A stretch of 40,052 nt of DNA from a virus, in the IMG/VR virus record IMGVR_UViG_3300035388_000083, positions 1 to 40,052 of that record. One strand, written 5' to 3'. Each line of letters begins with the position of its first letter. The first letter of the stretch is position 1. Positions 13,020 to 29,846 of the stretch are shown one piece after another. The notes under the pieces are model-generated. The model was not told the origin of the DNA. It was given only the letters and a program-made list of their open reading frames with translations, and searched no databases. The position numbers and the translations under genes are program-made.

Positions 13020-13056
13020 CTGTCCTTTTTTACCCTTTCTTCAGCTTATAATATTG
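13020..13056 (+). promoter_or_regulatory. CTGTCC-type phage promoter, copy A
   Basis: CTGTCC (13020-13025) followed by six T and, 29 nt from the start of the motif, TAATATTG (13049-13056), a near match to the Bacteroidota -7 box TAnnTTTG. It ends 33 nt before the protease-scaffold ATG. Four other copies have the same geometry. Confidence 0.65.
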
Positions 13057-13089
13057 TTTGCAGATAGATTATAATCAAAAAAGCAAACG

Positions 13090-14193
13090 ATGCAAAAGCC
13101 CTTTTATGTAATAAATGCAGCGCAAGACAGCGACACTGCCGAAATTCTTATATACAAACCAATCAACTCCGATTGGAACGCATGGTTTCTTAACAAGGAA
13201 GATATTACTGCACAGAATTTTGTTTCAGAATTCAAAAAACTTGAAGATAATTACAAAAACATTCACATTCGAATTAACTCTCCAGGCGGATATGTGTTCG
13301 ACGGTAATGCAATTTTTAATGTAATCTTCCAATCTAAAGCAAAAACCAAAACCTTTATTGATGGATTAGCGGCAAGCATGGCTTCAATTATTGCTCTTGC
13401 TAGTGATGAAATTGAAATTGCTAAAAACGGAATGATGATGTTGCATTCTCCGTTAAGCTGCTCATGTGGAAATGCTCAGGATATGAGAGATTCTGCAAAT
13501 GTATTAGATAAAATTGCAGAAGCTTTAATGCCTGCAGTTATCGACCGAACTGGATTAACCAAAGAAGAAGTAAAAAACAAATGGTTTGATTATAAAGATC
13601 ATTGGTTAACTGCAGAAGATTGCCTTAAGGATAAGCTTGTAGATAAAATCACAGAGAAAGAAGGTAAGGTTCCTGAGAATGTTGCCAATATGGCCACAAA
13701 CGATCTGTTTAATTTCTACCAAAACAACACATTCGAAACGAAAACATTGGATGATGTAGCAGAGAAAACATCAAACAAGGTGATTGATTATTTTAAATCA
13801 GTATTAAATATAAACACAACCGATAAATCAAATTACGACATGAAAAAAATCGCACTCGCTTTGAACTTGGACGAGAAAGCAGCCGAACAAGCTGTTCTCG
13901 ACGCCATTAAGGCGTTGCATGACTCAAATGCGAGTCTGACAACCGACCTTGCTACTGAAACGACAGCTCGTGAAACAGCCGAAAACTCTCTTACTACAGA
14001 ACAGGGTAAGGTTGCAACCCTTACTACTGAAAAAGCTGCCTTAGAAACCAAACTTGCACAAAAAGCAGGATCTTCTGCTGCATCTGCAAATAATGGTGGT
14101 GACTCTGGTGCAGATGATGAAACAGAAGAGCAAAAGCAAATAGCCAAGCTTTCTCATAATCAGTGGGCAAACAATCAATTAAATAATAATTAA
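13090..14193 (+). CDS. ClpP-like prohead protease with C-terminal scaffold-like domain
   Basis: This 367-aa protein has an N-terminal S14/ClpP-like protease with 'RINSPGGYVFDG' (61-72), nucleophile Ser96 in 'GLAASMAS', His119 in 'MMLHSP' and a probable Asp170 in 'KDHWLTAED'. After about residue 200 comes a linker and an Ala/Thr/Glu-rich coiled coil (~265-330), then a Gly/Asp-rich tail. Fusion of a head-maturation protease to a scaffold-like region is known in several phage groups: the C-terminal part directs capsid assembly and is removed by the protease. It stands 11 bp upstream of the major capsid gene and has its own CTGTCC promoter. Confidence 0.85.
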   Translation: MQKPFYVINAAQDSDTAEILIYKPINSDWNAWFLNKEDITAQNFVSEFKKLEDNYKNIHIRINSPGGYVFDGNAIFNVIFQSKAKTKTFIDGLAASMASIIALASDEIEIAKNGMMMLHSPLSCSCGNAQDMRDSANVLDKIAEALMPAVIDRTGLTKEEVKNKWFDYKDHWLTAEDCLKDKLVDKITEKEGKVPENVANMATNDLFNFYQNNTFETKTLDDVAEKTSNKVIDYFKSVLNINTTDKSNYDMKKIALALNLDEKAAEQAVLDAIKALHDSNASLTTDLATETTARETAENSLTTEQGKVATLTTEKAALETKLAQKAGSSAASANNGGDSGADDETEEQKQIAKLSHNQWANNQLNNN

Positions 14194-14204
14194 AAAAAAA
14201 TATT

Positions 14205-15170
14205 ATGTCACTAGGAATTAATGTTGATGATATTGTAACGGAATTTGGAAGTTACTATAAGAATAGCGGTCAAAACCGTAAAGACATCTTCAAAAAGTTT
14301 TTTCAAAAGATTGAAACAGAACAGGTAATGACCCGCAGGTCAACCGAAAATACTGTTTTAGAATTAACTGCAGCCGAAATCTCTGATATTTTACAAACCT
14401 ATCAACCTGGTTGGACCCCAAAAGGTACAACTACGTTCAAGCCACGTAAAATTGAATTGCAACATTTCAAAATAGATTATTCATTGGAGCCATATGCTAT
14501 CGCAGGTACATGGTTGGATTTCTTACGTGAAAAAGAAATTGATCCTTTAAAATTCCCTTTAACAAAGTATATTCTACAGGAATTTATTATTCCTAAAATT
14601 CAAGATAACCTTGAGCGAAAAGAATTATTTAAAGGTGTGCCTGTTGCTCCAACAGAAGGAACTGCAAACAATGCAGGTGAAACCATGCTTGGTATCCGTA
14701 AGCAATTAATTGATGGCATTAAGGATGGTTCAATCAACAAAGTTTCTTTAACAGCATTAACAACTGGAACAATTTTCGATAAAGTAGAAGAGTTTGTTGA
14801 TGCAATTGGTGAAGATTATCAGGATGTTCCAATGGATGTATGCATGTCAAAAGGTTGGAGAAAAGCTTACTTCAGAGATAAGCGTTCTGAAGGTTTCTAC
14901 CAAATACCTGGTGCGGATCAGATTGACGAAAGCATTGATTTTACACCGCAAAAAGTTAAGGGACTTGCTTCTATGTCAGGTGAAGACATTATGTGGGCAA
15001 CTCCAAAATGGAATGTACTCTCTACAACTAAGAATGGAATAAACGAAGGTCGTTTTGATATTCAGAAGGACAAGCGTCAAGTGAATGTCCTTACAGATTT
15101 CTATCGTGGAACTGGATTCATTATTCCTGAACTTGTTTGGGCATTTGTTCCTGAAGCTCTTCTTGTATAA
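14205..15170 (+). CDS. Major capsid protein (HK97-fold, probable)
   Basis: This 321-aa protein lies directly downstream of the protease-scaffold gene, the standard position for the major head protein. Its size fits the family. 'KPRKIELQHFKIDYSLEPYA' and 'PELVWAFVPEALL' at the C-terminus resemble Bacteroidota phage capsid proteins. There is no long delta-domain at the N-terminus, consistent with scaffolding being supplied by the protease fusion. A stem-loop without a T-run follows (15186-15211). The fold is inferred from context and general resemblance, not from a diagnostic motif. Confidence 0.75.
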   Translation: MSLGINVDDIVTEFGSYYKNSGQNRKDIFKKFFQKIETEQVMTRRSTENTVLELTAAEISDILQTYQPGWTPKGTTTFKPRKIELQHFKIDYSLEPYAIAGTWLDFLREKEIDPLKFPLTKYILQEFIIPKIQDNLERKELFKGVPVAPTEGTANNAGETMLGIRKQLIDGIKDGSINKVSLTALTTGTIFDKVEEFVDAIGEDYQDVPMDVCMSKGWRKAYFRDKRSEGFYQIPGADQIDESIDFTPQKVKGLASMSGEDIMWATPKWNVLSTTKNGINEGRFDIQKDKRQVNVLTDFYRGTGFIIPELVWAFVPEALLV

Positions 15171-15185
15171 ATATTAACATACATT

Positions 15186-15211
15186 CCCTATCCCGATCGC
15201 TCGGGATGGGG
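15186..15211. other. Stem-loop between capsid and tail tube genes
   Basis: CCCTATCCCGA / TCGGGATGGGG forms an 11-bp stem (one T-G pair) with a TCGC loop. With no run of T it is a weak terminator at best and may tune expression of genes after the capsid gene or protect the mRNA 3' end. Its TCCCGA core is shared with the variant REP unit at 16169. Confidence 0.6.
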
Positions 15212-15238
15212 GTATTTCAATAAACTAAATAAAGCTGT

Positions 15239-15877
15239 ATGAAAAACTTCTTTAAAATACAATTTATAAGCATGTGGATGATTTTCGGTCTTATGATCGA
15301 AAGATTCATGGCAGGCTTCGGTTTAATTCAATGCATGGATATGTTTGATATCGAACATGAATCTGCAAAAGATAATACTGGTGGAATGACCCAAACCTTC
15401 TATTTTGCAATTGCAGAAGACATTGAGACTTGGCCTACATATACTCCAAAAGTAACCGCAACAACTCCCGAAGAATTAATGAATTACACGGGCGATTTCG
15501 TTATGAAAACCGGTAAACGATTCTTTAAAGGATATTGTACTCACGGAACAGGTGAAGTTAAGTTTGATGCTATTGGTCCTATCGATGGAAAATCTTTCAA
15601 ACACTCAATAGAGTTTTTTAGACCAGGTATGGATGCCAAAGCATTAGCATGGTTGGATCTAAATAAGAATGCAAATTTAGTGTTCTTAGGCTACGATAAA
15701 GACGACACATTGCTTACTGTTGGTAGCGAAAAAATGAGTGCGAAATTTGAATCGGGTGCAGGAACAACAGGTAAATCAGGCGAAGATTCAAAAGGTGCAA
15801 CTGTAACCTTCTTCTCTGAGTTGGCTAGTCCACCAAAGGCTTATACAGGAACAATACCATTAACTGAGGCTGTATAA
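15239..15877 (+). CDS. Major tail tube protein (probable)
   Basis: This 212-aa protein is likely the tail tube subunit. From about residue 48 it reads 'GGMTQTFYFAIAEDIETWP', followed by a beta-rich body with 'KHSIEFFRPGMDAKALAWL' (121-139), 'YDKDDTLLTVGSEKM' and 'TTGKSGEDSKGATVTFFSE' (176-194). This pattern is common to tail tube proteins of Bacteroidota phages and is shared with the two fusion proteins at 10617 and 11693. The first ~30 residues are hydrophobic and may be a false extension: the Met codons at residues 12 or 35 are alternatives. It lies one hairpin downstream of the capsid gene. Confidence 0.65.
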   Translation: MKNFFKIQFISMWMIFGLMIERFMAGFGLIQCMDMFDIEHESAKDNTGGMTQTFYFAIAEDIETWPTYTPKVTATTPEELMNYTGDFVMKTGKRFFKGYCTHGTGEVKFDAIGPIDGKSFKHSIEFFRPGMDAKALAWLDLNKNANLVFLGYDKDDTLLTVGSEKMSAKFESGAGTTGKSGEDSKGATVTFFSELASPPKAYTGTIPLTEAV

Positions 15878-16127: not shown

Positions 16128-16157
16128 AAAGCCGCTTTTATAAAGCGGCTTTTTTTT
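16128..16157 (+). terminator. Rho-independent terminator after the capsid/tube operon
   Basis: A 10-bp stem AAAGCCGCTT / AAGCGGCTTT with a 5-nt loop runs into an unbroken T tract to 16157. Confidence 0.9.
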
Positions 16158-16215: not shown

Positions 16216-16252
16216 CTGTCCTTTTTGAAATTAATATTTACCAATAATTTTC
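16216..16252 (+). promoter_or_regulatory. CTGTCC-type phage promoter, copy B
   Basis: CTGTCC (16216-16221), five T, then TAATTTTC at 16245-16252, the same 29-nt offset as copy A. It drives the single secreted-protein gene at 16294. Confidence 0.6.
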
Positions 16253-16293: not shown

Positions 16294-16761
16294 ATGAAAA
16301 GAATTCTTGTTTTATCCTTAATGTTTGCAACATTGGTTCTGGTGGTTGTGCCACTTGGAAAGTCTGAGTTGGCATTAAAGGATTCACCGATTGAAAACCT
16401 GCAGGGAGATCTTATAAGCATCGACGATGTTAATTTTGAACCCCAAACAGAAGTAACAAACCCTATAAATGTTGTGGAGGTTGAAATATCCCCGGGCGAT
16501 AATTTACAGGGCGTTTATTATTCCGAGTTTAGTAAGGATAATAACAGCCATATGGATGGTTTTCTTGCCCTTTATGCTATAAATGACTACTCGTATAAGA
16601 GAACACAGCGATTGTATGGTACAAACTATTTTACACAAAGCATTTGGCTAAATAGCGACCTTGCAACCACACCAAACACCGCCACCGGTACAAACAAAAA
16701 AGACTATACGGAGGTTGGAATATCGCCGGCTTTAAGTGTAACGCATCAATACGATGCATGA
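16294..16761 (+). CDS. Secreted protein, monocistronic (candidate moron)
   Basis: This 155-aa protein has a clear N-terminal signal sequence or anchor ('MKRILVLSLMFATLVLVVVP'). The mature part is Asn/Thr/Tyr-rich ('GVYYSEFSKDN', 'FLALYAINDYSYKRTQRLYG') and resembles nothing I can name. It is isolated: a terminator and promoter copy B precede it and another terminator follows (16787). That autonomy, inside a structural region, is typical of a moron. It could be a virion, superinfection-exclusion or lysis protein; none is shown. Confidence 0.6.
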   Translation: MKRILVLSLMFATLVLVVVPLGKSELALKDSPIENLQGDLISIDDVNFEPQTEVTNPINVVEVEISPGDNLQGVYYSEFSKDNNSHMDGFLALYAINDYSYKRTQRLYGTNYFTQSIWLNSDLATTPNTATGTNKKDYTEVGISPALSVTHQYDA

Positions 16762-16786
16762 CATATTCAATAGATAAAAATAGTAA

Positions 16787-16816
16787 AAGCATGAACTCCG
16801 GTTCATGCTTTTTTTT
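16787..16816 (+). terminator. Rho-independent terminator after the secreted-protein gene
   Basis: A 10-bp stem AAGCATGAAC / GTTCATGCTT with a TCCG tetraloop is followed by a run of T to 16816. Confidence 0.9.
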
Positions 16817-16863: not shown

Positions 16864-16900
16864 CTGTCCTTTTTTGGCAATTGCCATTTTAAAAACTTTG
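16864..16900 (+). promoter_or_regulatory. CTGTCC-type phage promoter, copy C
   Basis: CTGTCC (16864-16869), six T, then AAACTTTG at 16893-16900 (TAnnTTTG with the first T replaced), at the 29-nt offset. It ends 22 nt before the ATG at 16923 and could drive the genes 16923 to 21781 (methyltransferase and terminases). Confidence 0.6.
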
Positions 16901-16922: not shown

Positions 16923-17279
16923 ATGAAAACAATATTTAAGAAAAGGTATGATGAAATGATGAGTCTTTTACTCGGTTTATTTAGTTTTTTAATAATAATT
17001 TTCATTCCTATTATTTGGATACGAAAAGGGTTTTCTTTTGATCTTTTTTCTACAATGATTATTGGAATCCTTGGACTGATTATGACCATCTCATGGATAA
17101 CTAAAAAACGAGCAAAAGGTTACTATTCTAACCAAATCAAACAAATCATTGGTGACGCTTCTGTAAGTGAAGATGCAGAAGACCTAAGAAATATGGATGA
17201 TACTACGCCTGTTTATAAAGAAAAATATAATGTGTACATCAATTCACTATCTGAAGAAATAGTTAATTTATTTTTCTAA
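16923..17279 (+). CDS. Two-pass membrane protein
   Basis: This 118-aa protein has two hydrophobic helices (about 14-33 'LLLGLFSFLIIIFIPIIWI' and 40-60 'LFSTMIIGILGLIMTISWI') and a soluble acidic C-terminal half with 'EDAEDLRNMDDTTPVYKEKY'. It is the first gene behind promoter copy C. A holin-like or superinfection-exclusion role could be imagined, but a separate lysis cassette is present at 26-28 kb; function unknown. Confidence 0.6.
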   Translation: MKTIFKKRYDEMMSLLLGLFSFLIIIFIPIIWIRKGFSFDLFSTMIIGILGLIMTISWITKKRAKGYYSNQIKQIIGDASVSEDAEDLRNMDDTTPVYKEKYNVYINSLSEEIVNLFF

Positions 17280-17309
17280 TAACTTCCACTAAAATCTAAC
17301 TAAATAATC

Positions 17310-18173
17310 ATGGAACAAAAAGCTGCAAGAAAGGAAATTTTAGACTGGCTAAGAGCAGGTCAACCATACGAAGAAGGCATTCAGTTGTTTGCAAAATACA
17401 GCAATAATGCAACTGTACTCAAGAACTTTAGTCGTAAAATGAATCAGGAGCGTAAAGATAAGCTTGCATATAAATTGGTAGTTAAAATTGCTAACCTACC
17501 CGAAAAGTATATTGCATTAGATCCTAAGAAACTTCCACAAGGCAAAAAGAAAGATCCTAAGAAACCTGTGGATCCTAAAAAGGGGCAGAATATAAAACCA
17601 AATACGGAGACAAAAGGAAAAACTCCACCACCAAACACCACGGCACCACAAACCGACTTAAAACCTGCTTACGAAAAAGCATGGGAAGGTAAAATCCCTT
17701 ATAAAGATCTACCAAAAGAAATTCGCGACCTGATTAATCAGCGTGTCGATGCCGAGCAGGATATAAAAGCACTCTCCGAAAATAGATTGGCTGTTCCTGC
17801 TAAAAACAACGAAAAAAACAATAAGGCCCGAAAGGATCTTAGCGAACAAATCGATGTTTTACTTGGTAAAAAGAACGAGCTAAACGCTCAAATTAAGCAA
17901 TACGAAGAAACTCTTGAGCTACCAAAAACAGACGAAGAAACAGGTCCCGACCCTAAACCTAAAACCGAAGCCGAAATTGTTCTCGAGCTAACCAAAAAGT
18001 ACAACAACCTTAAATCGCAACGTTCGAAATGCAGGAACCAGGTATTTGGGAATGAAAAAACCAAAAAAGACCCCTTACCTGCAGGTCCAAAACTCGAAGC
18101 TGCCAAAATAAAGCTTGCAGGCATCGAACAGGAAATTAAGGAAGTTGAAGAAAAGCTAAAACCCAGTAAATGA
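17310..18173 (+). CDS. Coiled-coil protein upstream of the methyltransferase
   Basis: This 287-aa protein has a helical N-terminal domain (1-65, 'ARKEILDWLRAGQPYEEGIQ'), a Lys/Pro-rich low-complexity linker (~72-115, repeated 'DPKK'), and a long helical/coiled-coil half with 'LSEQIDVLLGKKNELNAQIKQ' and a final 'AGIEQEIKEVEEKLK'. It overlaps the ParB-methyltransferase gene by 4 bp (ATGA). No family is recognised; the coupling suggests a partner for the methyltransferase or the packaging genes. Confidence 0.6.
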   Translation: MEQKAARKEILDWLRAGQPYEEGIQLFAKYSNNATVLKNFSRKMNQERKDKLAYKLVVKIANLPEKYIALDPKKLPQGKKKDPKKPVDPKKGQNIKPNTETKGKTPPPNTTAPQTDLKPAYEKAWEGKIPYKDLPKEIRDLINQRVDAEQDIKALSENRLAVPAKNNEKNNKARKDLSEQIDVLLGKKNELNAQIKQYEETLELPKTDEETGPDPKPKTEAEIVLELTKKYNNLKSQRSKCRNQVFGNEKTKKDPLPAGPKLEAAKIKLAGIEQEIKEVEEKLKPSK

Positions 18174-19489: not shown

Positions 19490-20127
19490 AAAACAAACTT
19501 TCTAGAATAGACGACCGAATAGTAGCTCAGATCCGATCTGAAGGCACAACCCTTGACCGCATCAAAGGCAGTATGATGTTTGGCAACGACAAGGTTCCTT
19601 TAACTCTTAAAGAAAAGGAAATTCTTGAGCGTTGGGATGCAGCTTTTACACTCCTAGTTAATTACCATAGCAACGAGCAGGCTATTCCTTTATTAATGAG
19701 TCGCTATAATATTAGCAGAGCACAAGCATATAGGGATATTCGAAACGCTCGCGACCTTTACGGTGATATTAATAAAACAAGCAAGGAAGCCGACCGCATT
19801 ATCGCTCTCGAGTGGACAATTAAAACCTTTCAGTTAGCAGCCAAGCAGCGACCACCTGATCTTGAGAATATGAACAGGGCAATTTCAAATTACATCAAAT
19901 TAAAAGCCCTGGACAGAGAAGATCCGGAAACATTCCGTGAAGAAGATCTGCAGCAACATAACTTCTATATGATATTACAAATGGATAACAGTAATTATCA
20001 GATCGATTTAAATGCCAAGGGTATTGATAAGATCCCAAAAAAGAAAATGCAGAACATTATAAATACTTTATACACCGATATCGAAGAAGTCGAAGCTATT
20101 GAATTACTAGACGAAGATGGCAAATAA
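19486..20127 (+). CDS. Terminase small subunit (probable)
   Basis: This 213-aa helical protein lies directly upstream of, and overlapping by 11 bp, the large terminase. The middle has a helix-turn-helix-like stretch 'AIPLLMSRYNISRAQAYRDIRNARDLYG' (about 66-93), as in small terminases that recognise packaging sites. The ATG overlaps the stop of the methyltransferase. Position plus the HTH give the call; no direct family signature was used. Confidence 0.75.
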   Translation: MKNKLSRIDDRIVAQIRSEGTTLDRIKGSMMFGNDKVPLTLKEKEILERWDAAFTLLVNYHSNEQAIPLLMSRYNISRAQAYRDIRNARDLYGDINKTSKEADRIIALEWTIKTFQLAAKQRPPDLENMNRAISNYIKLKALDREDPETFREEDLQQHNFYMILQMDNSNYQIDLNAKGIDKIPKKKMQNIINTLYTDIEEVEAIELLDEDGK

Positions 20128-21781
20128 AACGCTAACGTTTAATCCGGCACAGTTAACATCTGTTCTGTTGAACCCAAAGCACGAAGTCGATGTTTGGGGA
20201 CGTGGAACAGGTAAATCTAACAAACATGGTTGGAAAATGGACCGAATTATCAAGTCCATGCCCCGATCAAGCTCTGTTATTACCGGTAAAACATACACCC
20301 AACTTTTGACCAGGACATTGCCACCCATGATCTCCTTTTTAGAACGCATGGGCTACATTCGTAATAAGGACTTCTTTATTGGCAAAAAATCACCCAAATC
20401 ATGGGCATGGAGAGAGCCTTACGAAGCACCGCTATCCTATGAGCATTATATGATCTTTGGTAATCCAAACGGCTCTGTTGGCTTCCATTTAGCGAGTCAG
20501 GATCGAGTTGGCTCAGGTCGTGGTCTAAACACCGACTTCGAACTAACAGATGAAGCTTTAACGCTCGATATCGATCGATATAATAAAGAGATCCACGCAA
20601 CCAATAGGGGTAACCTGGATAGGTTTGGTAAGATCCCATGGCACCACGGAACCCACCACTCCACATCGATGCCATATAGTAAAGATGGCAAATGGTTACT
20701 CGAAGCAGGCGATTATTACGATATTGAAGCAGGTATTCGCTATAAGGAACTATGGAACCGGGTTGTTAAAATGCAATTAGACTTATTGGAGATAGATAAA
20801 CCCAAAGAGTTTGCTGCTCAATGGAACGAGATACAGCTTATCCGCAGGCGAATGACACCATTTGTATCAAAAGATGGTATGTTATTTACCTTGGCCAATG
20901 CATTTGATAATATAGAGAATGTGGGATATTCGTACATAAAGGAACAATATCGCACCACTCCCCGACTTACCTTCCTTATTGAGATAATGAATATGATCAT
21001 CGATAAGGTAGAAGACTGCTATTATGCCATAGATGGTGATAAGCACGTATATTATGATTCATACAACTATAGCCACATCGATAACCTTGATTATGATTTT
21101 AAGAAGTTAGGATCTCCCGATAGCCAGTTCGATAAAGATGTGGATCCAAACGAACCACTTAAGATGTTACAGGATTGGGGATCTTCCATCTCCTGGTTAA
21201 TCATAGCCCAGGATAATTGTTTAGTGGATCCTGATCGCAGGCTTACTAAGAACTATGTAAAAGAGTTCTATGCTAAGCAGCAGCAAGGACGTGTTATGAT
21301 CGACGATGTAGTGGACGACTTCTGTAAGTATTATCGATATCACAACGATAAGACCGTTATCTATTATAAAGATAAGTATGGCGATGCCCGACGAGCTAAT
21401 TCATCCGACACCTACAATCAGCAAGCAATCAACAGGCTAAGGGATAAAGGATGGAACGTAATACTAAAGGAAGAGAAAGCACAGGAACCACCACATCACG
21501 AAAAGTATTTACTGTGGAACAACTCCTTTAAAGAGAATAACGACCGATTCCCAATCGTTCGGTTCAATGGTAACAACTGCAAGTTTCTTATAATTGCCAT
21601 GCAAAACACTAAGGTGTACGAACGCAGTGGCAAGTTCGAGAAGGATAAGAGCTCAGAGCATAAGAACAGTAAAACCCCCGTCGAAGAAGCAACTCACAGC
21701 ACCGATGCAGCCGATAAGCTGCTATGGGTAGACCACAAGTCAACCAAGAGTGGTGGTGGGTTCATCGAGACACGTATTTAA
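20117..21781 (+). CDS. Terminase large subunit
   Basis: This 554-aa protein has the packaging ATPase-nuclease layout: Walker A 'GRGTGKS' (28-34), Walker B-like 'FELTDEA' (141-147, LTDE), and a C-terminal nuclease-like region beginning near 'LQDWGSSISWLIIAQDN' and ending with 'STDAADKLLWVDH', which supplies the acidic residues expected in an RNase-H-like fold. It powers DNA translocation into the prohead and cuts genome ends. The operon ends after it with a stem-loop at 21803. Terminases lie downstream of the capsid genes here, the reverse of the common order. Confidence 0.9.
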   Translation: MANKTLTFNPAQLTSVLLNPKHEVDVWGRGTGKSNKHGWKMDRIIKSMPRSSSVITGKTYTQLLTRTLPPMISFLERMGYIRNKDFFIGKKSPKSWAWREPYEAPLSYEHYMIFGNPNGSVGFHLASQDRVGSGRGLNTDFELTDEALTLDIDRYNKEIHATNRGNLDRFGKIPWHHGTHHSTSMPYSKDGKWLLEAGDYYDIEAGIRYKELWNRVVKMQLDLLEIDKPKEFAAQWNEIQLIRRRMTPFVSKDGMLFTLANAFDNIENVGYSYIKEQYRTTPRLTFLIEIMNMIIDKVEDCYYAIDGDKHVYYDSYNYSHIDNLDYDFKKLGSPDSQFDKDVDPNEPLKMLQDWGSSISWLIIAQDNCLVDPDRRLTKNYVKEFYAKQQQGRVMIDDVVDDFCKYYRYHNDKTVIYYKDKYGDARRANSSDTYNQQAINRLRDKGWNVILKEEKAQEPPHHEKYLLWNNSFKENNDRFPIVRFNGNNCKFLIIAMQNTKVYERSGKFEKDKSSEHKNSKTPVEEATHSTDAADKLLWVDHKSTKSGGGFIETRI

Positions 21782-21990: not shown

Positions 21991-22027
21991 CTGTCCTTTT
22001 TTTGGCTTTGCTCATAAGCCATATTTG
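21991..22027 (+). promoter_or_regulatory. CTGTCC-type phage promoter, copy D
   Basis: CTGTCC (21991-21996), seven T, then CATATTTG at 22020-22027, at the same 29-nt offset. Unlike the other copies there is no REP unit upstream, which shows the promoter element is separable from the repeat. It ends 14 nt before the ATG at 22042. Confidence 0.65.
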
Positions 22028-22041: not shown

Positions 22042-22317
22042 ATGGCTGCAATCTCTTTAAACGATGTTCTAAACCAGTGGGATAAAATTGAGCTCGGTAA
22101 CACCGATCAATCTTTTTCGATTGGATTTATTACTAAGAACGGAGAAACACGATTTTACAAAAGAGCTGTTAAGGCCGGTTGTAGATTCAGTTTAAAGAAT
22201 AATGAAATGAGAGCTTGTATTCCTATCGATGAAGATGGCAAATCTACTGGACATATTACTCCTTTTAGCATTTGGCGTGTGACTAGTTTTAATGGTAAAA
22301 ACGTAATTATATCATAA
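22042..22317 (+). CDS. Small protein upstream of the portal gene
   Basis: This 91-aa protein has 'SFSIGFITKNGETRFYKRAVKAG' and a beta-rich C-terminal half. It is the first gene behind promoter copy D and overlaps the portal gene by one base (TAATG). I do not recognise it; small conserved proteins in this spot are common in Bacteroidota phages, but I cannot give a function. Confidence 0.6.
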   Translation: MAAISLNDVLNQWDKIELGNTDQSFSIGFITKNGETRFYKRAVKAGCRFSLKNNEMRACIPIDEDGKSTGHITPFSIWRVTSFNGKNVIIS

Positions 22318-23663
22318 TGAATGTAGAATGGAGTAAAGACGGTTATCCTTTAGCAGTATATGGTAGTAACGCTGTTGTTCAAACTACAGGATTTGACAGT
22401 ATTAAAAAACCTGCAATTTTAAAAGAAGAAAACGACGATGAGTTAATGCTCGACAATTTTAAAATTGCTTCTTGGTTTGATGCTACAAACGACTATCCAA
22501 ACAAAACAATTCAAACATATTTAAGAAAATCTCCTGCTTTGCGTTCTGCTATTGATTACAAAGTTCGATTATCGATTGGAAATGGATTAATGCCTGCAGA
22601 AATTGTGGGGATAAACGAAGATGGCACAGAAGAGTTAAAGCCTATTCTGGATATTAAGATACATAAATTTTTATCGTCGAGAATGATTCGTCGATATCAG
22701 TACGAAGCATATCAGAACTTGTGGGAATCGGGAATGGCATTTCCGCAGCTTATTTCAAATAAGGAAGGTACTTATTTCTCTGTTATAAAAAACCACGATT
22801 CTCCCTTCTGTAGATTTACAAAGAAAGAAAAAGGAGTTATTAAGCATTGTCTTGTTTCAGGAAAATGGCCCGATGTAACAAGTAAGGATGACTATGAAGC
22901 ATTATCTGTTTTAGATCTCGAAGGATCAGAAGATGAAATTATTGCAAGAGCACAACAGTTAAAAAGTTTTATATATCCTATTTCATTAAACACTTCCGGA
23001 AACATTTATTACCAATTACCACCTTGGGACACAGCTCGTGCAGGTGGACATTTGGATATCAGTATTAAAATTGCCGAATACTTAATGTATATGTTCGACA
23101 ATCAAATGTCGATTAAATATCATATTACAATACCTTATTCGTATTGGGATAAGAAATACCCACTCGAAGACTATAAATCAACTAAAGAACTAGAGATTCG
23201 CAAATCTAAAATTGCGAAGGATCTTGATGATATCGAGAATAATTTAACCACTACCAAAAACGCAAAGAAAGCAATTATGACTCACTTCGAATTAAACCAA
23301 CAAGGTAAAGCCGAAGAGAAGTGGGGCATTGAAGTAATCGACGATAAATATAAAACGGAGCAGTACTTGCCACAAGCAGCTGCAAGTAATGCCGAGATAT
23401 TTACATCATTAAATATTAATCCGGCCGTAAAAGGGCTTTCTCTTTCTTCGGGGCCTTATTCAAATTCGAGTGGTGGTTCTGATATCCGAGAAGCATTTTT
23501 AATTGATAATGCTCTCGCCTGGGTGGACAGACAAGAAATAATTGATCCAATAGAACTTATGGTGCGAATAAATTTCAAAAAAGAAAACTTGGTTCTTAGA
23601 TCTAGGAGTTTGGTATTAACAACTCTTGACACTGGATCCGGAACTCAAAAAACTTTAAGCTAA
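22317..23663 (+). CDS. Portal protein (probable)
   Basis: This 448-aa protein has portal-like features: 'SPALRSAIDYKVRLSIGNGLMP' (about 62-83), an alpha/beta middle with 'AYQNLWESGMAFPQL', and a helical region ending 'AAASNAEIFTSLNINPAVKGLSLSSGPYSNSSGGSDIREAFLI' (about 354-396), where the crown and wing of portals usually lie. Size and position after the terminase and before the connector-like protein agree. Start and stop overlap both neighbours by a base, implying coupled translation. Confidence 0.75.
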   Translation: MNVEWSKDGYPLAVYGSNAVVQTTGFDSIKKPAILKEENDDELMLDNFKIASWFDATNDYPNKTIQTYLRKSPALRSAIDYKVRLSIGNGLMPAEIVGINEDGTEELKPILDIKIHKFLSSRMIRRYQYEAYQNLWESGMAFPQLISNKEGTYFSVIKNHDSPFCRFTKKEKGVIKHCLVSGKWPDVTSKDDYEALSVLDLEGSEDEIIARAQQLKSFIYPISLNTSGNIYYQLPPWDTARAGGHLDISIKIAEYLMYMFDNQMSIKYHITIPYSYWDKKYPLEDYKSTKELEIRKSKIAKDLDDIENNLTTTKNAKKAIMTHFELNQQGKAEEKWGIEVIDDKYKTEQYLPQAAASNAEIFTSLNINPAVKGLSLSSGPYSNSSGGSDIREAFLIDNALAWVDRQEIIDPIELMVRINFKKENLVLRSRSLVLTTLDTGSGTQKTLS

Positions 23664-24658
23664 TGTTGGTAACTAATAACACAGAAATTCGCAAATTCTT
23701 GCCTGCTTCGGTTAGTATAACCTTTGCACGGATAGAACCATTTATTGAAGTGGCCGAGAAGAAATATATAAAAGAAGTTTTTGGATTAGCGTTTCTTACC
23801 GAGCTTAATGCTTACCATAAATTAGAAACTCAAGATAACGAGTACTTAAACGAAGTACTCAGTATGACTCAACGCTCCGTTACATACTTAGCTTTTTATG
23901 AAGGCTTCGATATTCTTAGCGTTTCGATAAAAGATACTGGGTTTTTCCGTGTCGAAAACAACGAAAATAAATCGCTGTTTAATTACCAGGAGAAAAAGCT
24001 TCGCGATTATTTTTCCAATACAGGATACAATACTTTAGAAGATGTTCTGGAATATATGGAAGCCAATCTCGCACAATTTACCACCTGGGCAGATTCCGAT
24101 GCATACCAAAATAACCGCAAGTATTTTATTAATTCTGCAAAGGAATTCACAGAAATATATAAGCCACTTAAGAAAAGCCGCTTAGTATTTTTAAATATTC
24201 AGTCGGATTTAAAAGCAGCTGAAGACTTTGATATTAAATCGATACTTGGCACAGCTCTTTTCGATAAATTAAAAGACCTGGTACTCGATAAGGATATCGA
24301 AGAAGCCGAGTTTATCGAATACAAAAAGCTATTGCCTTATGTACAAAATGTACTGGCTTACAGAACGGTTGTTCGTTGTATTAAAAACTTAGGCGCAAAC
24401 TTCACCGACAAAGGTTTGTTCTTTGCAAGCTTTGAAAATACCGACAAGAATTTTAAACGTGAGACACCAAATACAGAGCAGACACTTGCTTTAATTGGTG
24501 GAGCAACCGAGAATGCAAATCAATACCAGGACCAATTAGAAAGCTATTTACTCGAGAGCAAAGAAGTTCTTCCAGAATATGCAGAGTTTATTGGCGACGA
24601 AGATCAAACCTTCGACCCAAGTTTCGATAATGAAGACAAGAAGATAATAAGAATGTAA
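23663..24658 (+). CDS. Head-tail connector-like protein (DUF6712-like)
   Basis: This 331-aa helical protein resembles the DUF6712-type proteins that follow portal genes in Bacteroidota phages. Two similar halves each begin with a helix bundle ('SITFARIEPFIEVAEKKYIKEVFG', about 17-40; then 'FLNIQSDLKAAEDFDIKSILG' about 176-196). The internal duplication recalls connector/adaptor proteins of the gp6-like family. It starts one base into the portal stop. The function is inferred from position and repeat structure. Confidence 0.6.
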   Translation: MLVTNNTEIRKFLPASVSITFARIEPFIEVAEKKYIKEVFGLAFLTELNAYHKLETQDNEYLNEVLSMTQRSVTYLAFYEGFDILSVSIKDTGFFRVENNENKSLFNYQEKKLRDYFSNTGYNTLEDVLEYMEANLAQFTTWADSDAYQNNRKYFINSAKEFTEIYKPLKKSRLVFLNIQSDLKAAEDFDIKSILGTALFDKLKDLVLDKDIEEAEFIEYKKLLPYVQNVLAYRTVVRCIKNLGANFTDKGLFFASFENTDKNFKRETPNTEQTLALIGGATENANQYQDQLESYLLESKEVLPEYAEFIGDEDQTFDPSFDNEDKKIIRM

Positions 24659-24670
24659 AAACTATATATT

Positions 24671-24916
24671 ATGAAATTTACAGATGCAATCTTTTACCAC
24701 GGAAAAGCCTCAGGCGGAATTAACACCACAACAGTTAATGATGGCACCGACGATTGGGAAGTGCAAGAATTATTAAACGACGATGGGAAAGTATATTTTA
24801 AGTTGGCCATACTTTGGAACGATAAAGCTTCAGGTGATTTTAAAGCGATCCGCAAAAAGTATTTCGATACACCAGTAGATCCTACAGACGTAATTGCAAA
24901 CCCTTTAGAAGCATAG
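24671..24916 (+). CDS. Unrecognised small acidic protein
   Basis: This 81-aa, acidic, beta-leaning protein ('GGINTTTVNDGTDDWEVQEL', 'VYFKLAILWNDKASGDF') lies between the connector-like and the carbohydrate-binding-like genes with gaps of 12 and 3 bp. No family is recognised. Confidence 0.55.
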   Translation: MKFTDAIFYHGKASGGINTTTVNDGTDDWEVQELLNDDGKVYFKLAILWNDKASGDFKAIRKKYFDTPVDPTDVIANPLEA

Positions 24917-24919
24917 ATT

Positions 24920-25822
24920 ATGCGTAACCAGTTTAACCGAAAATTAAAACCACCGGGTGTTGGGTTGTTTAGTAAAGGGAGTTCTTTCTCAAAGGAAAAC
25001 CTAACAAGCAGGTACATTCAAGTTGCCGAAGGCGACGACTTAACAGACATCTATGGTGTTGAAGTTGACATTCCGTATGTATCAGGAGTTGGTAAAGATC
25101 AGATATTTGATTTCGGTGTATTGAACGATTTACGATTCGATAAAGGATGTTATGTAGGTAATCTTTATGGATTAGCAGAATATTACGATTCTCCTTATGT
25201 AAATATTTATTACGACGATTCTACAGCAATTACACGTTGTTATTGGAAATTACCCGACTTTCATTATGCTAACTTACTAGCTCAAGGAAATACACTACAA
25301 AATGTATTTTTCTTAAAAGCCAAAGCAACAACAAAGACAAGTAATGAAATATTAAGTATGCAAGAATTACTTGTATACTCAGTTGAGCAAATGAATGAAA
25401 ATTTATCAAGGATAAAAACTTGGATTGGAACACATGATTTTTATTCTGAAAATTTAGTTCTAAATGGAACGTTTGATAATTCTGATAACTGGACTATGTC
25501 TTCTGGCTGGTCAATATCTAGCGGAAAACTCAATGGAAATATAGATACTGGATTCATAAGAACAACACAAAACATATTCCTTCAGTCAGGATTAACTTAT
25601 AAAATATCTTATGAAATATCAAATATGACATTTGGGGGATTTCGAGCATATTTTAGTACAGATAGTTTTGGTATGACTCGATTTACTAATGGCAAGTACG
25701 AAGAACTGGTTAATATGAATACTCATTATAGCGTTCTTTATTTATATACATATGTCGGTTTTAAAGGAAGTATTGATAATCTTATACTGCAAAGTTTTCA
25801 TCAAAATTATTACAAATCATGA
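24920..25822 (+). CDS. Virion protein with C-terminal carbohydrate-binding-like domain
   Basis: This 300-aa protein has an N-terminal ~150 residues that are unfamiliar ('YIQVAEGDDLTDIYGVEVDIPYVSGVG'). The C-terminal ~130 residues have the jelly-roll carbohydrate-binding-module pattern: 'ENLVLNGTFDNSDNWTMSSG', 'IRTTQNIFLQSGLTYKISYEI', 'YTYVGFKGSIDNLILQ' (compare CBM4/9-like 'N..FE....W' and 'y.iDnv.l'). This suggests a tail or head fibre that binds host glycans. It overlaps the next gene by 4 bp. The domain call is by pattern. Confidence 0.55.
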   Translation: MRNQFNRKLKPPGVGLFSKGSSFSKENLTSRYIQVAEGDDLTDIYGVEVDIPYVSGVGKDQIFDFGVLNDLRFDKGCYVGNLYGLAEYYDSPYVNIYYDDSTAITRCYWKLPDFHYANLLAQGNTLQNVFFLKAKATTKTSNEILSMQELLVYSVEQMNENLSRIKTWIGTHDFYSENLVLNGTFDNSDNWTMSSGWSISSGKLNGNIDTGFIRTTQNIFLQSGLTYKISYEISNMTFGGFRAYFSTDSFGMTRFTNGKYEELVNMNTHYSVLYLYTYVGFKGSIDNLILQSFHQNYYKS

Positions 25823-26184
25823 GTCGAAAATCAGCCATAGAAATTCATATTGATACAACTGATATTCCACAAGCAATATTAGATAAGTACGATATTGAGT
25901 ATTACAAGGAAAAGGAAACCGATACTTTGTGGATTCACGAGAATGGATACAAACCATTTGAGCGTGAATTATTCAATTATATGAGTGGTGTTAAATCTGT
26001 ACTTAATCGTCGTACAAATTCAGATCATTTGGATTTATATATCGAAGCTATCGAAATAGATGAGTTTGGAATCGATACCGGCACAAAAAAATTTAAAAAT
26101 ATCCGATGGTCCGAAATTATTGCTGGGCAAATTGATATGAGCAAAGTAATTCTTAAAAAAGAAGTATATGATACAAGTGTTTAG
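25819..26184 (+). CDS. Unrecognised protein coupled to the carbohydrate-binding-like gene
   Basis: This 121-aa protein opens with 'IEIHIDTTDIPQAILDKYDIEYYKEKETDTLWIHENGYKPFE' and ends in a basic helix. It overlaps both the previous gene (4 bp) and the following membrane-protein gene (17 bp). It could be a chaperone or baseplate-like component for the upstream fibre; no motif proves it. Confidence 0.5.
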   Translation: MSRKSAIEIHIDTTDIPQAILDKYDIEYYKEKETDTLWIHENGYKPFERELFNYMSGVKSVLNRRTNSDHLDLYIEAIEIDEFGIDTGTKKFKNIRWSEIIAGQIDMSKVILKKEVYDTSV

Positions 26185-26635
26185 TTATACTGCAGATATT
26201 GTTTTTGTATCCTTCATTGCATTTGTAATTGGAAGGTATAAGGTACAAAGAAGTATTTCTGAAAATTATTACAAGCTTCGTGCCGATAATCTTGGAAACT
26301 TATTTACTCTGTTTTGTGTAGGTTTTGCTTTTCCTGTAGCCATGTTGGCTTCCGATATATTTATTACACCTGCAGCGATGCTTATATGTTTGGTTGGAGT
26401 TAGCCGAGCTTTTAAAGAATCAAAGCTATTAAGGTTCTTTCATATGTCTGGTGCTTACGTAGGCGTTGTTTTAAGTCAGATTGGTATATGTATATCCTAC
26501 GATATGTGGTATATAACAGTCGCATTTTTCAGCATTTCCGGAATATTATTCCTTTTAAAAGTTAAGAATAAAATATTTTGGGTGGAGATCCTTGCATTTT
26601 TATCCATTCGTATTGTATTAATAAATTTCCAATAA
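26168..26635 (+). CDS. Multi-pass membrane protein in the lysis region
   Basis: This 155-aa protein has about five to six hydrophobic helices (near 6-22, 44-62, 64-80, 93-110, 112-130 and 138-153). It overlaps the preceding CDS by 17 bp and is followed by another membrane protein, the endolysin and a holin-type gene. It is probably a lysis or membrane-remodelling protein of the phage; the family is not identified. Confidence 0.6.
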   Translation: MIQVFSYTADIVFVSFIAFVIGRYKVQRSISENYYKLRADNLGNLFTLFCVGFAFPVAMLASDIFITPAAMLICLVGVSRAFKESKLLRFFHMSGAYVGVVLSQIGICISYDMWYITVAFFSISGILFLLKVKNKIFWVEILAFLSIRIVLINFQ

Positions 26636-26642
26636 CACCACT

Positions 26643-26936
26643 ATGAGCGAACAAGTATACATCACACTCTTATCGATATCCGGAACAGTTCTTTTGTTGG
26701 CATTAGGATTGATAGGATATTTTTTTAAACGCATTGTAAAATCTCTCGATAATTTCGATACAACACTAAAAGGCTTTAGTGTCGATTACTCGGCCACAAA
26801 AGAGAGAGTTAAACAAATGCAGCTCGGTTGCAAAGAACGTCACGATACTATTAACAGTAGATTAACAGAACATGGCAAGCGACTTGATACAGCTGAAAAA
26901 AATATTGGCAGATTAGAAGTTATTGTTAATCCTTAA
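26643..26936 (+). CDS. Membrane-anchored coiled-coil protein (XhlA-like layout)
   Basis: This 97-aa protein has one N-terminal membrane helix (about 7-29, 'ITLLSISGTVLLLALGLIGYFF') and a C-terminal coiled coil ('RVKQMQLGCKERHDTINSRLTEHGKRLDTAEKNIGRLE', about 58-95). The layout resembles XhlA-type holin partners or spanin-like proteins, though with the helix at the N-terminus. It is placed 11 bp before the endolysin. The start follows an AACACCACT leader. Confidence 0.55.
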   Translation: MSEQVYITLLSISGTVLLLALGLIGYFFKRIVKSLDNFDTTLKGFSVDYSATKERVKQMQLGCKERHDTINSRLTEHGKRLDTAEKNIGRLEVIVNP

Positions 26937-26947
26937 AATATATTATT

Positions 26948-27487
26948 ATGGCATCAAGAGACATAAAAGTATTAGATCCGGACATGCAAATACAAACAAA
27001 TTTTGTTGTTAATCAGTGTAAGAAAAATGGAGTTGACATTTTAGTTTATTGCACATTAAGAGATTTGCACGAACAAGCAATATTATTTAGAAGCTCAGAT
27101 CCGAGGGGAGAAAAAGTACAGAAGAAAATTAAATGGTTAAGAGCGAATCAGTTCAATTTCTTGGCAGATATTATTGAAGAAATTGGTCCGCAAAAATACT
27201 CAGGGTGGAAAACCAATGCAGCACCAGGAGAATCATTTCATAATTACGCTTTAGCTTTCGATGCTGTTCCAACTATTGGAGGCAAACCAATGTGGAATTA
27301 TGATGACTATCCAGAGGGGTGGAACGAATTCGGACGTGCTTGCACAATGGCAGGTTTGGAATGGGGTGGAAACTGGACTAAGTATAAAGATCTTCCACAC
27401 GCTCAACTTGGAAATGGATCTAATCCATTAAGAAGGTATTCTTCTATACAAATAAAAGAAATGCTTATTAAGAATAATTTATTATAA
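26948..27487 (+). CDS. Endolysin, peptidase M15 family (L-alanyl-D-glutamate peptidase-like)
   Basis: This 179-aa zinc peptidase has 'YCTLRDLHEQAILF' (34-47), metal ligands His98 and Asp105 in 'SFHNYALAFD', and His151 in 'DLPHAQL', the M15 SxHxxGxAxD...HxQ pattern (the usual Gly is Tyr100-Ala101 here). 'AGLEWGGNWTKYKD' before the last ligand is typical of phage endolysins. It cleaves peptidoglycan cross-link peptides at lysis. No signal peptide is present, so release depends on a holin such as the one at 27589. Confidence 0.88.
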   Translation: MASRDIKVLDPDMQIQTNFVVNQCKKNGVDILVYCTLRDLHEQAILFRSSDPRGEKVQKKIKWLRANQFNFLADIIEEIGPQKYSGWKTNAAPGESFHNYALAFDAVPTIGGKPMWNYDDYPEGWNEFGRACTMAGLEWGGNWTKYKDLPHAQLGNGSNPLRRYSSIQIKEMLIKNNLL

Positions 27488-27491
27488 ACAT

Positions 27492-27545
27492 GCTTCGACA
27501 AGCTCAGCATGACACGGTTTGTCATCCTGAGCTTGTCGAAGGGTG
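27492..27545. repeat. REPIN-like inverted doublet
   Basis: GCTTCGACAAGCTCAGCATGACA (27492-27514) and TGTCATCCTGAGCTTGTCGAAGGGTG (27520-27545) are near-perfect inverse copies around a 5-bp loop, followed by a third partial unit (GTCGAAGGGTGACA). This is the best-preserved doublet of the window, in the 101-bp gap between endolysin and holin. Confidence 0.9.
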
Positions 27546-27588
27546 TCGAAGGGTGACAAACTAAAAACAAAACATTAAACCAAACACC

Positions 27589-28062
27589 ATGGGACAGTAT
27601 AAAGACGAACACGGAAAAACAAGAGTTGGCGATTTACTTCGCAACCTTGGCGATGTAGGAAAACCAATTTTACAAGCAGCTGCAGGTTTAACCGGGCAAG
27701 CTTGGATAAGCAATATTGCTGAAGGTATTACCACATCAAAAGAAATAAAGGAAGATCAAAAGAAGCTCGCTCTTGAATTGGCTAAACTAGATCGGCAAGA
27801 TGCGGCTAACGAACGTGAAAATGTGACCGCACGATGGAAGTCTGATATGACTAGTGATAGTTGGCTTTCAAAGAATGTGCGCCCATTAATTCTAATTTGG
27901 TCTTGGTTAATTGTTTCAACCTATGGTTTTATAGAATTGTTAAGCGATTTTTCATTATCGACACCTTTTATCCAAATGTATAGTGGTGCATGGATTGCTG
28001 TAAACGTTGCATTCTTTGGTGGTCGCGAATGGCAGAAACACATTCGAAACAAGAAACTTTAA
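27589..28062 (+). CDS. Holin of the 3TM/GTA-like family
   Basis: This 157-aa protein has an N-terminal amphipathic/soluble region ending with the family-typical 'WKSDMTSDSWLSKNVRPLIL' (83-102), then membrane helices at about 98-117 and 128-145. The 'SWLSKNVRP' segment before the first helix is a hallmark of the GTA-holin-like (3TM) family. The ATG directly follows a CCAAACACC leader. It lies downstream of the M15 endolysin, as expected for a lysis cassette. Confidence 0.8.
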   Translation: MGQYKDEHGKTRVGDLLRNLGDVGKPILQAAAGLTGQAWISNIAEGITTSKEIKEDQKKLALELAKLDRQDAANERENVTARWKSDMTSDSWLSKNVRPLILIWSWLIVSTYGFIELLSDFSLSTPFIQMYSGAWIAVNVAFFGGREWQKHIRNKKL

Positions 28063-28093
28063 ACTTTTATCTTTTTACTTTAATCTTTATTTA

Positions 28094-28804
28094 ATGCTCA
28101 AACTTACCTACAAACACCGCATACTAAAAGCTGAGCATTGGGATGAATTAAACCAAGCTGAATTTATTGAATTGTTCCGGAGAATAAATGCGCCCTGGTA
28201 CGAAATAGGATCTCGCCTTGAGTTAAGCCAGTGGATCTATAATAATCAAATCTCACATAAGTTCCTGGTTAAAAAGATTAAGTTAAAACGGCTTAAGCTT
28301 TATGGTCCATCGGAAGGTTTTCGAGATATGACAAGCGGTGAGTTCCTTTTTGCCGATACTTATTATTTTACATATCTGAACAATGAGGATCCTGCTCTCC
28401 TGGATAAATTTATTGCAAGCATCTTTCGCGAAAGAAAAGCTTGGTTTAGATTTTCGAAAAAACGAATCGACTTCGACGAAGATCTAATAAACCCACGTGC
28501 CAAACTCCTTGAGAATCTACCACAGGAAATAAAGCAAGCCATATTATTTAACTATGGTGCTGTGCGTGGAGATATAATTAAACCACTCAAATCTTTATTT
28601 CCACAGCGCAAAAGCGATCCTAAACCATTTAAGAAAGATGGATCCGTAGCAAAGAAAAAAATACCGGTTCCACAATGGGAAAAATGGATGTGGGATTTAG
28701 CTGCAGGAAACACCGATCAAGATTTCGACAAAGTGGCAAATATGCTCGTTCGAAATTTCCTTAAACGAATCGATACACTAATTAAAGAATCGAAGAAAAA
28801 ATAA
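28094..28804 (+). CDS. Unrecognised basic phage protein
   Basis: This 236-aa, helical, Lys-rich protein contains 'EFLFADTYYFTYLNNEDPALLDKFIASIFRER' and 'QAILFNYGAVRGDIIKPLKSLFP'. I know similar uncharacterised proteins from Bacteroidota phage regions but no function; an assembly or tail-chaperone role is only positional. The frame is open from 28007, inside the holin gene; I choose the ATG at 28094 because it lies beyond the holin stop. Confidence 0.6.
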   Translation: MLKLTYKHRILKAEHWDELNQAEFIELFRRINAPWYEIGSRLELSQWIYNNQISHKFLVKKIKLKRLKLYGPSEGFRDMTSGEFLFADTYYFTYLNNEDPALLDKFIASIFRERKAWFRFSKKRIDFDEDLINPRAKLLENLPQEIKQAILFNYGAVRGDIIKPLKSLFPQRKSDPKPFKKDGSVAKKKIPVPQWEKWMWDLAAGNTDQDFDKVANMLVRNFLKRIDTLIKESKKK

Positions 28805-28986: not shown

Positions 28987-29017
28987 ATGAACAAAACACG
29001 GCGAAAAATCTAAAAAA

Positions 29018-29045
29018 AAACCCCGGCACCTCCATGTTGGGGTTT
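29018..29045 (-). terminator. Stem-loop, good minus-strand terminator
   Basis: AAACCCC / GGGGTTT (7 bp, 14-nt loop). On the minus strand it is followed by nine T, an effective terminator for transcription coming from the minus-strand gene at 29333-29608; on the plus strand the tail is TTTATTGTT only. The loop contains CCTCC (29029-29033), complementary to the Shine-Dalgarno GGAGG at 29104-29108. Confidence 0.55.
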
Positions 29046-29112
29046 ATTGTTACTGAGTAGCAAGGGCAATTCCGCGCCTATAAAAAGTCGGGTAAAACAG
29101 AAAGGAGGCCTT

Positions 29113-29250: not shown

Positions 29251-29280
29251 AACAGACCTCTCCTTTTAATGGAGGTACCT

Positions 29281-29305
29281 AAGGGGCTTGGAGGAGCCCC
29301 TTTTT
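29281..29305 (+). terminator. Rho-independent terminator after the 45-aa gene
   Basis: AAGGGGCT / AGCCCCTT (8 bp, 6-nt loop TGGAGG) runs into TTTTT. A weaker hairpin ACCTC..GAGGT (29256-29276) precedes it. Confidence 0.85.
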
Positions 29306-29332
29306 AGTTGAACATATTATACTTGTCTTTGT

Positions 29333-29608
29333 TCACTTCTCCTTTAACATCCAATACAAATCGAAGCCAGTACTAGTTTTAAGCATAGTTGCTTTAAAGC
29401 CCAATCCACGAAGTGCTTTAAGAATTTGCGAATCGTTTACTCCCGGAAGAATATCTGCAAACTTATCGGTAATAGCCTGAGTAGTTAATAGAACTACACC
29501 TTCTTTTTGGTCTGTTGGTTTGTATTGTTTTTTGAATAGTTTCTTTAGATCGTCGAATATTTCATCTTCGATACGTGGTTCAATGTTCTTTTCGTGGTCG
29601 TCGCACAT
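29333..29608 (-). CDS. Minus-strand unknown protein inside the late region
   Basis: This 91-aa protein starts 'MCDDHEKNIEPRIEDEIFDD', has a basic helix 'LKKLFKKQYKPTDQ' and a C-terminal wing-like part ('AITDKFADILPGVNDSQILKALRGLGFKATMLKT'), which could be a winged-helix fold (guess). I choose this ATG, not one 42 nt upstream, because it is directly preceded by the AACCAAACACC leader. It is the only minus-strand gene besides the integrase; a divergent gene in a late operon is typical of lysogen-expressed cargo. Its leader overlaps the large inverted repeat 29643-29725. Confidence 0.6.
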   Translation of the reverse strand: MCDDHEKNIEPRIEDEIFDDLKKLFKKQYKPTDQKEGVVLLTTQAITDKFADILPGVNDSQILKALRGLGFKATMLKTSTGFDLYWMLKEK

Positions 29609-29642
29609 GGTGTTTGGTTTTAAAGAAGCACCCGAAGAGCCT

Positions 29643-29725
29643 GGCAACATCGTACATACGTGTAAGGGGATTTAAACCCCTTAGCCCAACGGGTGTGTTT
29701 CTTTAGTATGTACGATTATGTTGCC
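29643..29725. repeat. Long bulged inverted repeat with nested palindrome
   Basis: GGCAACATCGTACATAC (29643-29659) pairs with 29706-29725 over 17 bp with a single 3-nt bulge (ATT). Inside lie TAAGGGG..CCCCTTA (29663-29683) and a smaller GCCC..GGGT hairpin. The structure lies just upstream of the minus-strand gene, and most of it would be in that gene's 5' leader. The remainder of the gap 29726-29810 shows only AT-rich sequence with ATTCAATT/ATTGAAC-like words. Confidence 0.75.
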
Positions 29726-29810
29726 ATTACAAATGTAGTAAATATTCAATTATCAATGAACAATTGAACAATAAACAATCCACTATGTGTTGCTGAGCGG
29801 AGCCGAAGTA

Positions 29811-29846
29811 CTGTCCTTTTTTACCCATTTTCAAGCCATAACTTTG
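29811..29846 (+). promoter_or_regulatory. CTGTCC-type phage promoter, copy E
   Basis: CTGTCC (29811-29816), six T, then TAACTTTG at 29839-29846, a perfect TAnnTTTG, offset 28 nt. It ends 25 nt before the ATG at 29872 and probably drives the whole tail operon to 37054. A degenerate REP-like TGCTGAGCGGAGCCGAAGTA precedes it. Confidence 0.7.

Follow-up and report, generated by a model that had tools for sequence, protein, structure and literature searches.

We have analyzed the complete IMG/VR virus record IMGVR_UViG_3300035388_000083 (40,052 bp, not a host contig; hereafter the window), in which the late genes fall into five units, each headed by a copy of the same composite promoter-like site (Table 1). 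The units begin with the protease/capsid genes (13090) and the gene of a 155 amino acid (aa) protein (16294), and continue with the terminase unit (16923–21781), the portal unit (22042–28804) and the tail unit (29872 onward). Just upstream of the late block lies the gene of a small protein of a family that we call c19. The gene assignments agree with a preliminary description of this DNA, made from its letters, in which the five sites were said to head the capsid, secreted-protein, terminase, portal and tail units. The 155 aa protein had no match in Pfam or PHROG. Gene order suggests that the gene after the protease codes for the capsid; its counterpart in the Polaribacter phage Leef_1, Leef1_42, comes after the protease/capsid gene, and the family (c4) was found in all 17 near-complete phages that carry the motif described below.

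Table 1. Late promoters, terminators and genes of the late region in the window
Feature	Positions	Strand	Basis
c19-family protein, 171 aa, candidate late-transcription activator	10098..10613	+	predicted C-terminal helix-turn-helix, residues about 83-156
Late promoter 1, head protease/capsid unit	13020..13056	+	CTGTCCTTTTTT 13020-13031, -7 box TAATATTG 13049-13056
ClpP-type head maturation protease, first late gene	13090..14193	+	Pfam PF00574 1e-28; phrog_2976 2e-62
Capsid-like protein, core family c4	14205..15170	+	23% identity to Leef1_42
Intrinsic terminator ending capsid unit	16128..16157	+	59 nt upstream of promoter 2
Late promoter 2, 155 aa signal-peptide-like protein	16216..16252	+	CTGTCCTTTTT 16216-16226, box TAATTTTC 16245-16252
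155 aa protein, signal-peptide-like N-terminus, single-gene unit	16294..16761	+	sequence
Intrinsic terminator ending 155 aa gene unit	16785..16816	+	48 nt upstream of promoter 3
Late promoter 3, methylase/terminase unit	16864..16900	+	CTGTCCTTTTTT 16864-16875, box AAACTTTG 16893-16900
Terminase large subunit	20117..21781	+	33% identity to annotated terminase, Microcystis phage Mea-Yong924-1
Late promoter 4, portal unit	21991..22027	+	CTGTCCTTTTTTT 21991-22003, box CATATTTG 22020-22027
Portal protein	22317..23663	+	27% identity to annotated portal, Polaribacter phage Leef_1
Head-tail adaptor, DUF6712	23663..24658	+	PF20459 1.8e-26; Leef_1 gene after portal annotated adaptor
Late promoter 5, tail unit	29811..29846	+	CTGTCCTTTTTT 29811-29822, box TAACTTTG 29839-29846; spacing 1 base shorter

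The window contains exactly five copies of CTGTCCTTTTT, all on the + strand and all intergenic, against a mean of 0.07 in first-order Markov sequences (maximum 1 in 300). For the composite of TGTCCTTT and the downstream box the figures were 5 and a mean of 0.05, which rules out a chance origin of the sites. The box starts 29 nucleotides (nt) after the C of CTGTCC at the first four sites and 28 nt after it at the fifth, i.e., 28 nt from TGTC to the box and 27 at the site of 29811, and it matches 5–6 of the 6 specified bases of TAnnTTTG. From the end of the box to the ATG there are 33, 41, 22, 14 and 25 nt at sites 1 to 5. The five composite CTGTCC-T(5-7)/TAnnTTTG sites, one per late unit, and their fixed geometry therefore stand as first described, and the distance to the start codon, given there as 14–42 nt, was measured as 14–41 nt. 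The mapped sigma-ABfr promoters of Flavobacterium johnsoniae have the element TAHHTTTG with transcription starts 4–5 nt downstream (PMC6847099). On this basis the starts are expected 4–5 nt past the box, and not about 7 nt as in the preliminary description, which would put the start of late promoter 1 at about 13061–13062.

Public viral contigs were scanned for CTGTCCTTTTT-N{12,22}-TAnnTTTG. Among the matches listed, the class with a gap of 18 (the geometry of the window) had at least 23 sites, nearly all of them just upstream of genes; a gap of 17 was represented by 2 sites, and the other gaps mostly by coding hits in families of near-identical contigs. With variation allowed in the first base and within the T-run, whole phage records had 2–7 sites each, located on the late-gene strand. 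The profile built from 89 distinct sites was (c)TGTCCTTTTT-N(about 18)-TAnnTTTG. Its conserved core is TGTCC, the leading C being merely preferred (48/89 sites), and the base following the TTT is G in just 3/89. The two unspecified bases of the -7 box are G in 9/89 and 3/89 sites, an avoidance that matches the mapped TAHHTTTG signature of F. johnsoniae (PMC6847099). The search itself had required TGTCC, most of the TTT and the greater part of the -7 box; what the profile shows independently is the abundance of T after TTT, the near-absence of G at the free positions and the lack of conservation in the flanks. The earlier proposal that CTGTCC is an activator site or a phage-specific -35 is thus supported, with the core corrected to (N)TGTCCTTT.

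The phages that carry the motif have portal, adaptor, terminase and capsid families in common, and it could be argued that the motif has simply been kept by descent within related phage modules, with no regulatory role. However, flanks and spacers are unconserved in the 89 sites (mostly <0.15 bit per column) while box and spacing are kept over phages that span 34–62% GC, and the sites precede different genes in different phages. Inert conservation is, of the explanations that we have weighed, the one to which we give the least credit, and the argument from fixed geometry with variable flanks made in the preliminary description holds.

We have also used a motif-blind set, 669 kb of sequence retrieved by protein similarity alone (with c19, or for part of the phage records the portal, as the query) from viral contigs, a sample of 395 Bacteroidia genomes and phage records with c19 or portal similarity. 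Here we scored TGTCC+TTT and a downstream TAnnTTTG-like box, with one mismatch allowed in each. There were 38 sites at offset 28, whereas 50 other offsets had a mean of 1.64 (maximum 5). As some of these loci are close relatives, the nominal P of 6e-38 overstates the significance, but the contrast is still plain. The motif model and the scan of related phages, suggested as a check at the outset, thus recovered the same spacing and late-gene context across the phylum. It is nearly certain that TGTCCTTT, followed by TAnnTTTG 28 nt after its first T, is a phylum-wide late promoter of Bacteroidota phages.

The T-run behind CTGTCC might alternatively be the tail of an intrinsic terminator, the spacing to the -7 box being then incidental. 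Several sites in other phages do have a GGRCAG partner upstream of CTGTCC, and real terminators are located 48–59 nt upstream of two of the window sites. Against this, at four of the five window sites the T-run adjoins no hairpin of unusual stability (fold z between -1.7 and 1.4; the one at 16216 is stable, z -3.0), so that a terminator was rejected at those four, the 89 sites have no conserved upstream partner, and a terminator would leave the distance to the -7 box unfixed. We regard this reading as very unlikely. The GGRCAG partner itself, found 6–16 nt upstream of CTGTCC in L057, L068, L069, L070 and L117, forms an inverted repeat that can be read as a terminator or as a second half-site. 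As an operator the GGRCAG...CTGTCC dyad was discarded, being present at some sites but with no conserved partner in the 89.

Cultivated phages provide further examples. The Cellulophaga phage Ingeline_1 (MT732435) has 5 sites (148, 4560, 22912, 33402 and 38832), each of them on the late strand and at offset 28, with its c19 homologue (Ingeline1_41, 32734–33315, E 6e-6) directly ahead of the capsid promoter, and in Polaribacter phage Leef_1 we found 2 sites and the homologue Leef1_39 (29520–29993). Promoters go unmentioned in the paper describing Leef and Ingeline (PMC8776804). A c19 homologue (1.6e-12) is also encoded by the Flavobacterium phage laban6-1, which has no TGTCCTTT site. What it has is a private box, TGTCACAA, with TGTCACA exactly 28 nt upstream of a -7 box at 5 late operons, and no other of 630 heptamer permutations reaches 3. 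Similarly, Flavobacterium phage 6H contains exactly 4 copies of TGTCTTAAA, all of them 27–28 nt before a -7-like box and at late operons, one being immediately downstream of its c19 gene; the c19 proteins of 6H and laban6-1 are 35% identical. At the position of the T-run these two phages have TTAAA (6H) and ACAA (laban6-1), so that the run is not essential. The preliminary idea of a T-run standing in place of the host -33 TTTG is accordingly supported as to the place, with the T-run itself dispensable. Since neither phage has TTTG in that region, the -33 element appears to have given way to the TGTC box. More distant prophages have CGTCCTA and AGTCCTTT at the equivalent position. A further record, L415 (MZ447863, Microcystis phage Mea-Yong924-1), has a portal and a terminase of Bacteroidota type, a c19 homologue and two TGTCCTTT promoters, and its assignment to a Microcystis host may deserve a check.

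Among the matches listed one box recurs across phages of many Bacteroidota orders, as would be expected if a host factor or sigma factor read TGTCCTTT and the phages borrowed it. But the motif is not enriched in host genomes. In the 395 Bacteroidia genomes exact TGTCCTTT-N20-TAnnTTTG gave 43 matches, about half of the reversed control (about 95, hand count), and several of them were inside prophages, for example 3 in one prophage of Prevotella bivia and one located <10 kb from a c19 gene. On this ground a host motif was rejected, and an equally frequent occurrence in host intergenic sequence unrelated to phage genes, which the preliminary description had named as a result that would speak against it, was not what we found. 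In an exact-pattern scan of genome contigs, whose listed matches include chance coding hits outside Bacteroidota, the intergenic sites of Bacteroidota contigs mostly adjoin phage genes. In addition, the different private boxes that the two Flavobacterium phages have at the same position are not predicted by a shared host factor, and we consider this explanation unlikely.

The c19 family is made up of proteins of 160–210 aa. A profile search detected one homologue in each of the 17 near-complete motif phages, and this is the sole non-structural family present in all of them, the other universal families being structural or involved in packaging. In the mapped phages, as in Leef, Ingeline and 6H, the gene is placed directly ahead of the late (capsid) block, and most of the c19 genes found in bacterial genomes adjoin the same phage module. 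Matches to tape-measure proteins in the second iteration of the profile arose by contamination and disappeared once a length limit was set. There was no convincing match to c19 in Pfam, PHROGs, PDB sequences or PDB folds, and the 17 members searched against Pfam at E up to 0.5 gave no Mor, no zinc-finger Ogr and no GerE match. AlphaFold2 modelled the window protein with a mean predicted local distance difference test (pLDDT) of 85 (85–86 across models) and with a C-terminal helical domain. The sole good match of this model in a viral fold library was the Leef_1 homologue (E 1e-5, template modelling score 0.70–0.76), and the C-terminal part gave weak helix-turn-helix alignments (Z 3–4.4; TraR, TrpR-like, MntR and a sigma -35-binding domain). 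The putative recognition helix is KK-type in many TGTCCTTT phages, RR in laban6-1 and 6H and AR-type in the CGTCCTA loci, a comparison that involves small numbers and was noticed after the fact. The candidate that fits best is c19, which is universal in these phages, located ahead of the late block and confidently modelled, has a conserved basic helix and varies in step with the box; it is probably the activator of the late promoters. In one record (L169, G028) a TGTCCTTT site at 7975 is found upstream of the c19 gene itself (8298), an arrangement that could allow self-activation.

Several observations weigh against c19 as the reader of the box. The matches to PDB folds are weak (Z up to 4.5) and are no proof of DNA binding, some c19 loci (e.g., L404, L407 and L408) have no site at the thresholds used, and the phages share a structural module, so that c19 and box do not co-occur independently of phylogeny. 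The boxes of laban6-1 and 6H were found post hoc, by inspecting operon starts. Finally, many of these phages also have a LuxR-type gene, which is annotated in each of the isolates Leef, Ingeline, laban6-1 and 6H. This last point leads to the main rival explanation, that the promoters are real and that the box is read instead by the LuxR/GerE-type protein encoded at 609–1235 of the window, which is a recognisable helix-turn-helix protein (PF00196, 9e-12). However, a convincing LuxR match was obtained in only 7 motif-bearing records (G000, G004, G014, G015, G021, G023 and G031), the near-complete G007, G016, G017, G027 and G034 have box and c19 with no LuxR match, and the gene is distant from the late block. 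Not being universal among motif phages, the LuxR protein was set aside; it is an improbable reader, although the strongest of the alternatives. It has a Cys-rich middle part (CPLRGxC-like in relatives) that is common to several of these phages. Another possible regulator, a 130 aa protein at 8415–8807 consisting mainly of a DnaA C-terminal helix-turn-helix domain, was rejected as it is present in only 2/29 records, the window and one other related record (G031).

Having weighed these alternatives, we consider it quite likely that the late promoters are read by c19, an early phage activator, at the TGTC box, and this is the best explanation overall. Since the phylum's primary sigma factor has this same -7 box, the host RNA polymerase is probably used, and the holoenzyme with this sigma factor would transcribe from the five late promoters through the -7 element TAnnTTTG. 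The (N)TGTCCTTT box, its TGTC starting 28 nt upstream of the -7 element, would stand in place of the canonical -33 TTTG. Taking the T of TA as -12, it would occupy about -40 to -33, the usual place of the weak -33 element. The c19 protein, encoded just upstream of the late block and presumably made early, would bind the box by its predicted C-terminal helix-turn-helix and recruit or re-aim the holoenzyme, switching on the capsid, terminase, portal and tail units separately. In its broadest form, the proposal is of a late system extended over the phylum, in which c19-type proteins read the TGTC box at the usual -33 contact of sigma region 4 and re-aim the host sigma factor to promoters with no -33 element, protein and box having co-diversified (TGTCCTTT, CGTCCTAT, AGTCCTTT, TGTCACAA, TGTCTTAAA) at a fixed distance from the -7 element. 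Towards this wider version we lean only slightly.

Other features of the window accompany the late region. An N6/N4 DNA methylase gene (18170–19489; PF01555, 8e-30) is found within the terminase unit. The protein family c9 has three members in the window (10617–11609, 11672–12946 and 15239–15877), the first two located between the c19 gene and the first late promoter. A repeat, TGTCATCCTGAGC(C/T)TGTCGAAGG, appears in several copies (at about 4008, 10051, 11649, 12986, 16169, 16831, 27520 and 33736), some of them as inverted pairs, with variants directly upstream of late promoters 1–3. It looks like an intergenic repeat of host type carried by the phage.

The promoter and its candidate activator would allow late operons to be called directly from the sequences of many uncultured phages of gut and marine origin, and would provide regulated promoters in a phylum for which genetic tools are scarce. 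They also offer a test case of how a phage may re-aim an unusual primary sigma factor, and the cultivated Ingeline, Leef and laban6-1 make the system testable now. Late promoters under a phage activator are of a known kind, while this form of promoter and the c19 family appear undescribed in the literature searched. The preliminary description knew of no described promoter of this form, and we found no account of the motif or of a dedicated late promoter of Bacteroidota phages, most subscription journals being outside the search.

Compared with sigma-ABfr promoters (-33 TTTG / -7 TAnnTTTG), the phage promoters share the -7 element TAHHTTTG, with G avoided at the free positions. The -33 TTTG is not matched, as a TTT is found at the right distance but is rarely followed by G, and there is an extra TGTC box fixed at 28 nt, with laban6-1 and 6H having no TTTG there. 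The Duneviridae/Helgolandviridae phages Ingeline, laban6-1, 6H and Leef are like the window in having portal, adaptor, c19 and promoters of the same or a variant form, and their c19 genes are annotated as hypothetical. Several copies head the late operons of one phage, as is characteristic of activator-dependent phage late promoters. In phage Mu, with C/Mor, a middle/late activator gene lies upstream of the late genes, there are several late promoters, and the site is near or overlaps the -35. With c19 as the candidate activator the arrangement would be the same here, but a relation in sequence could not be detected (Pfam gave no Mor match), the sigma system is different, and one short direct box with no conserved dyad is found. 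In the middle promoters of T4, MotA/AsiA act with the retained host sigma factor, through a phage box that takes the place of the -35 and has a set spacing to a normal -10-type element. The likeness would lie in this replacement and in the sigma factor retained; no relative of MotA or AsiA was detected, though, there is a single candidate protein, and late rather than middle genes are involved. P2 Ogr and the RinA/ArpU-type proteins are small phage DNA-binding proteins that activate late operons, and Ogr is a zinc-finger protein that acts at about -55 on a dyad. The small phage-encoded c19 would turn on late operons in a similar way, although it matches neither family in Pfam. The LuxR/GerE regulators differ from c19, which has no GerE domain, and the GerE protein of the window is the product of a separate gene.

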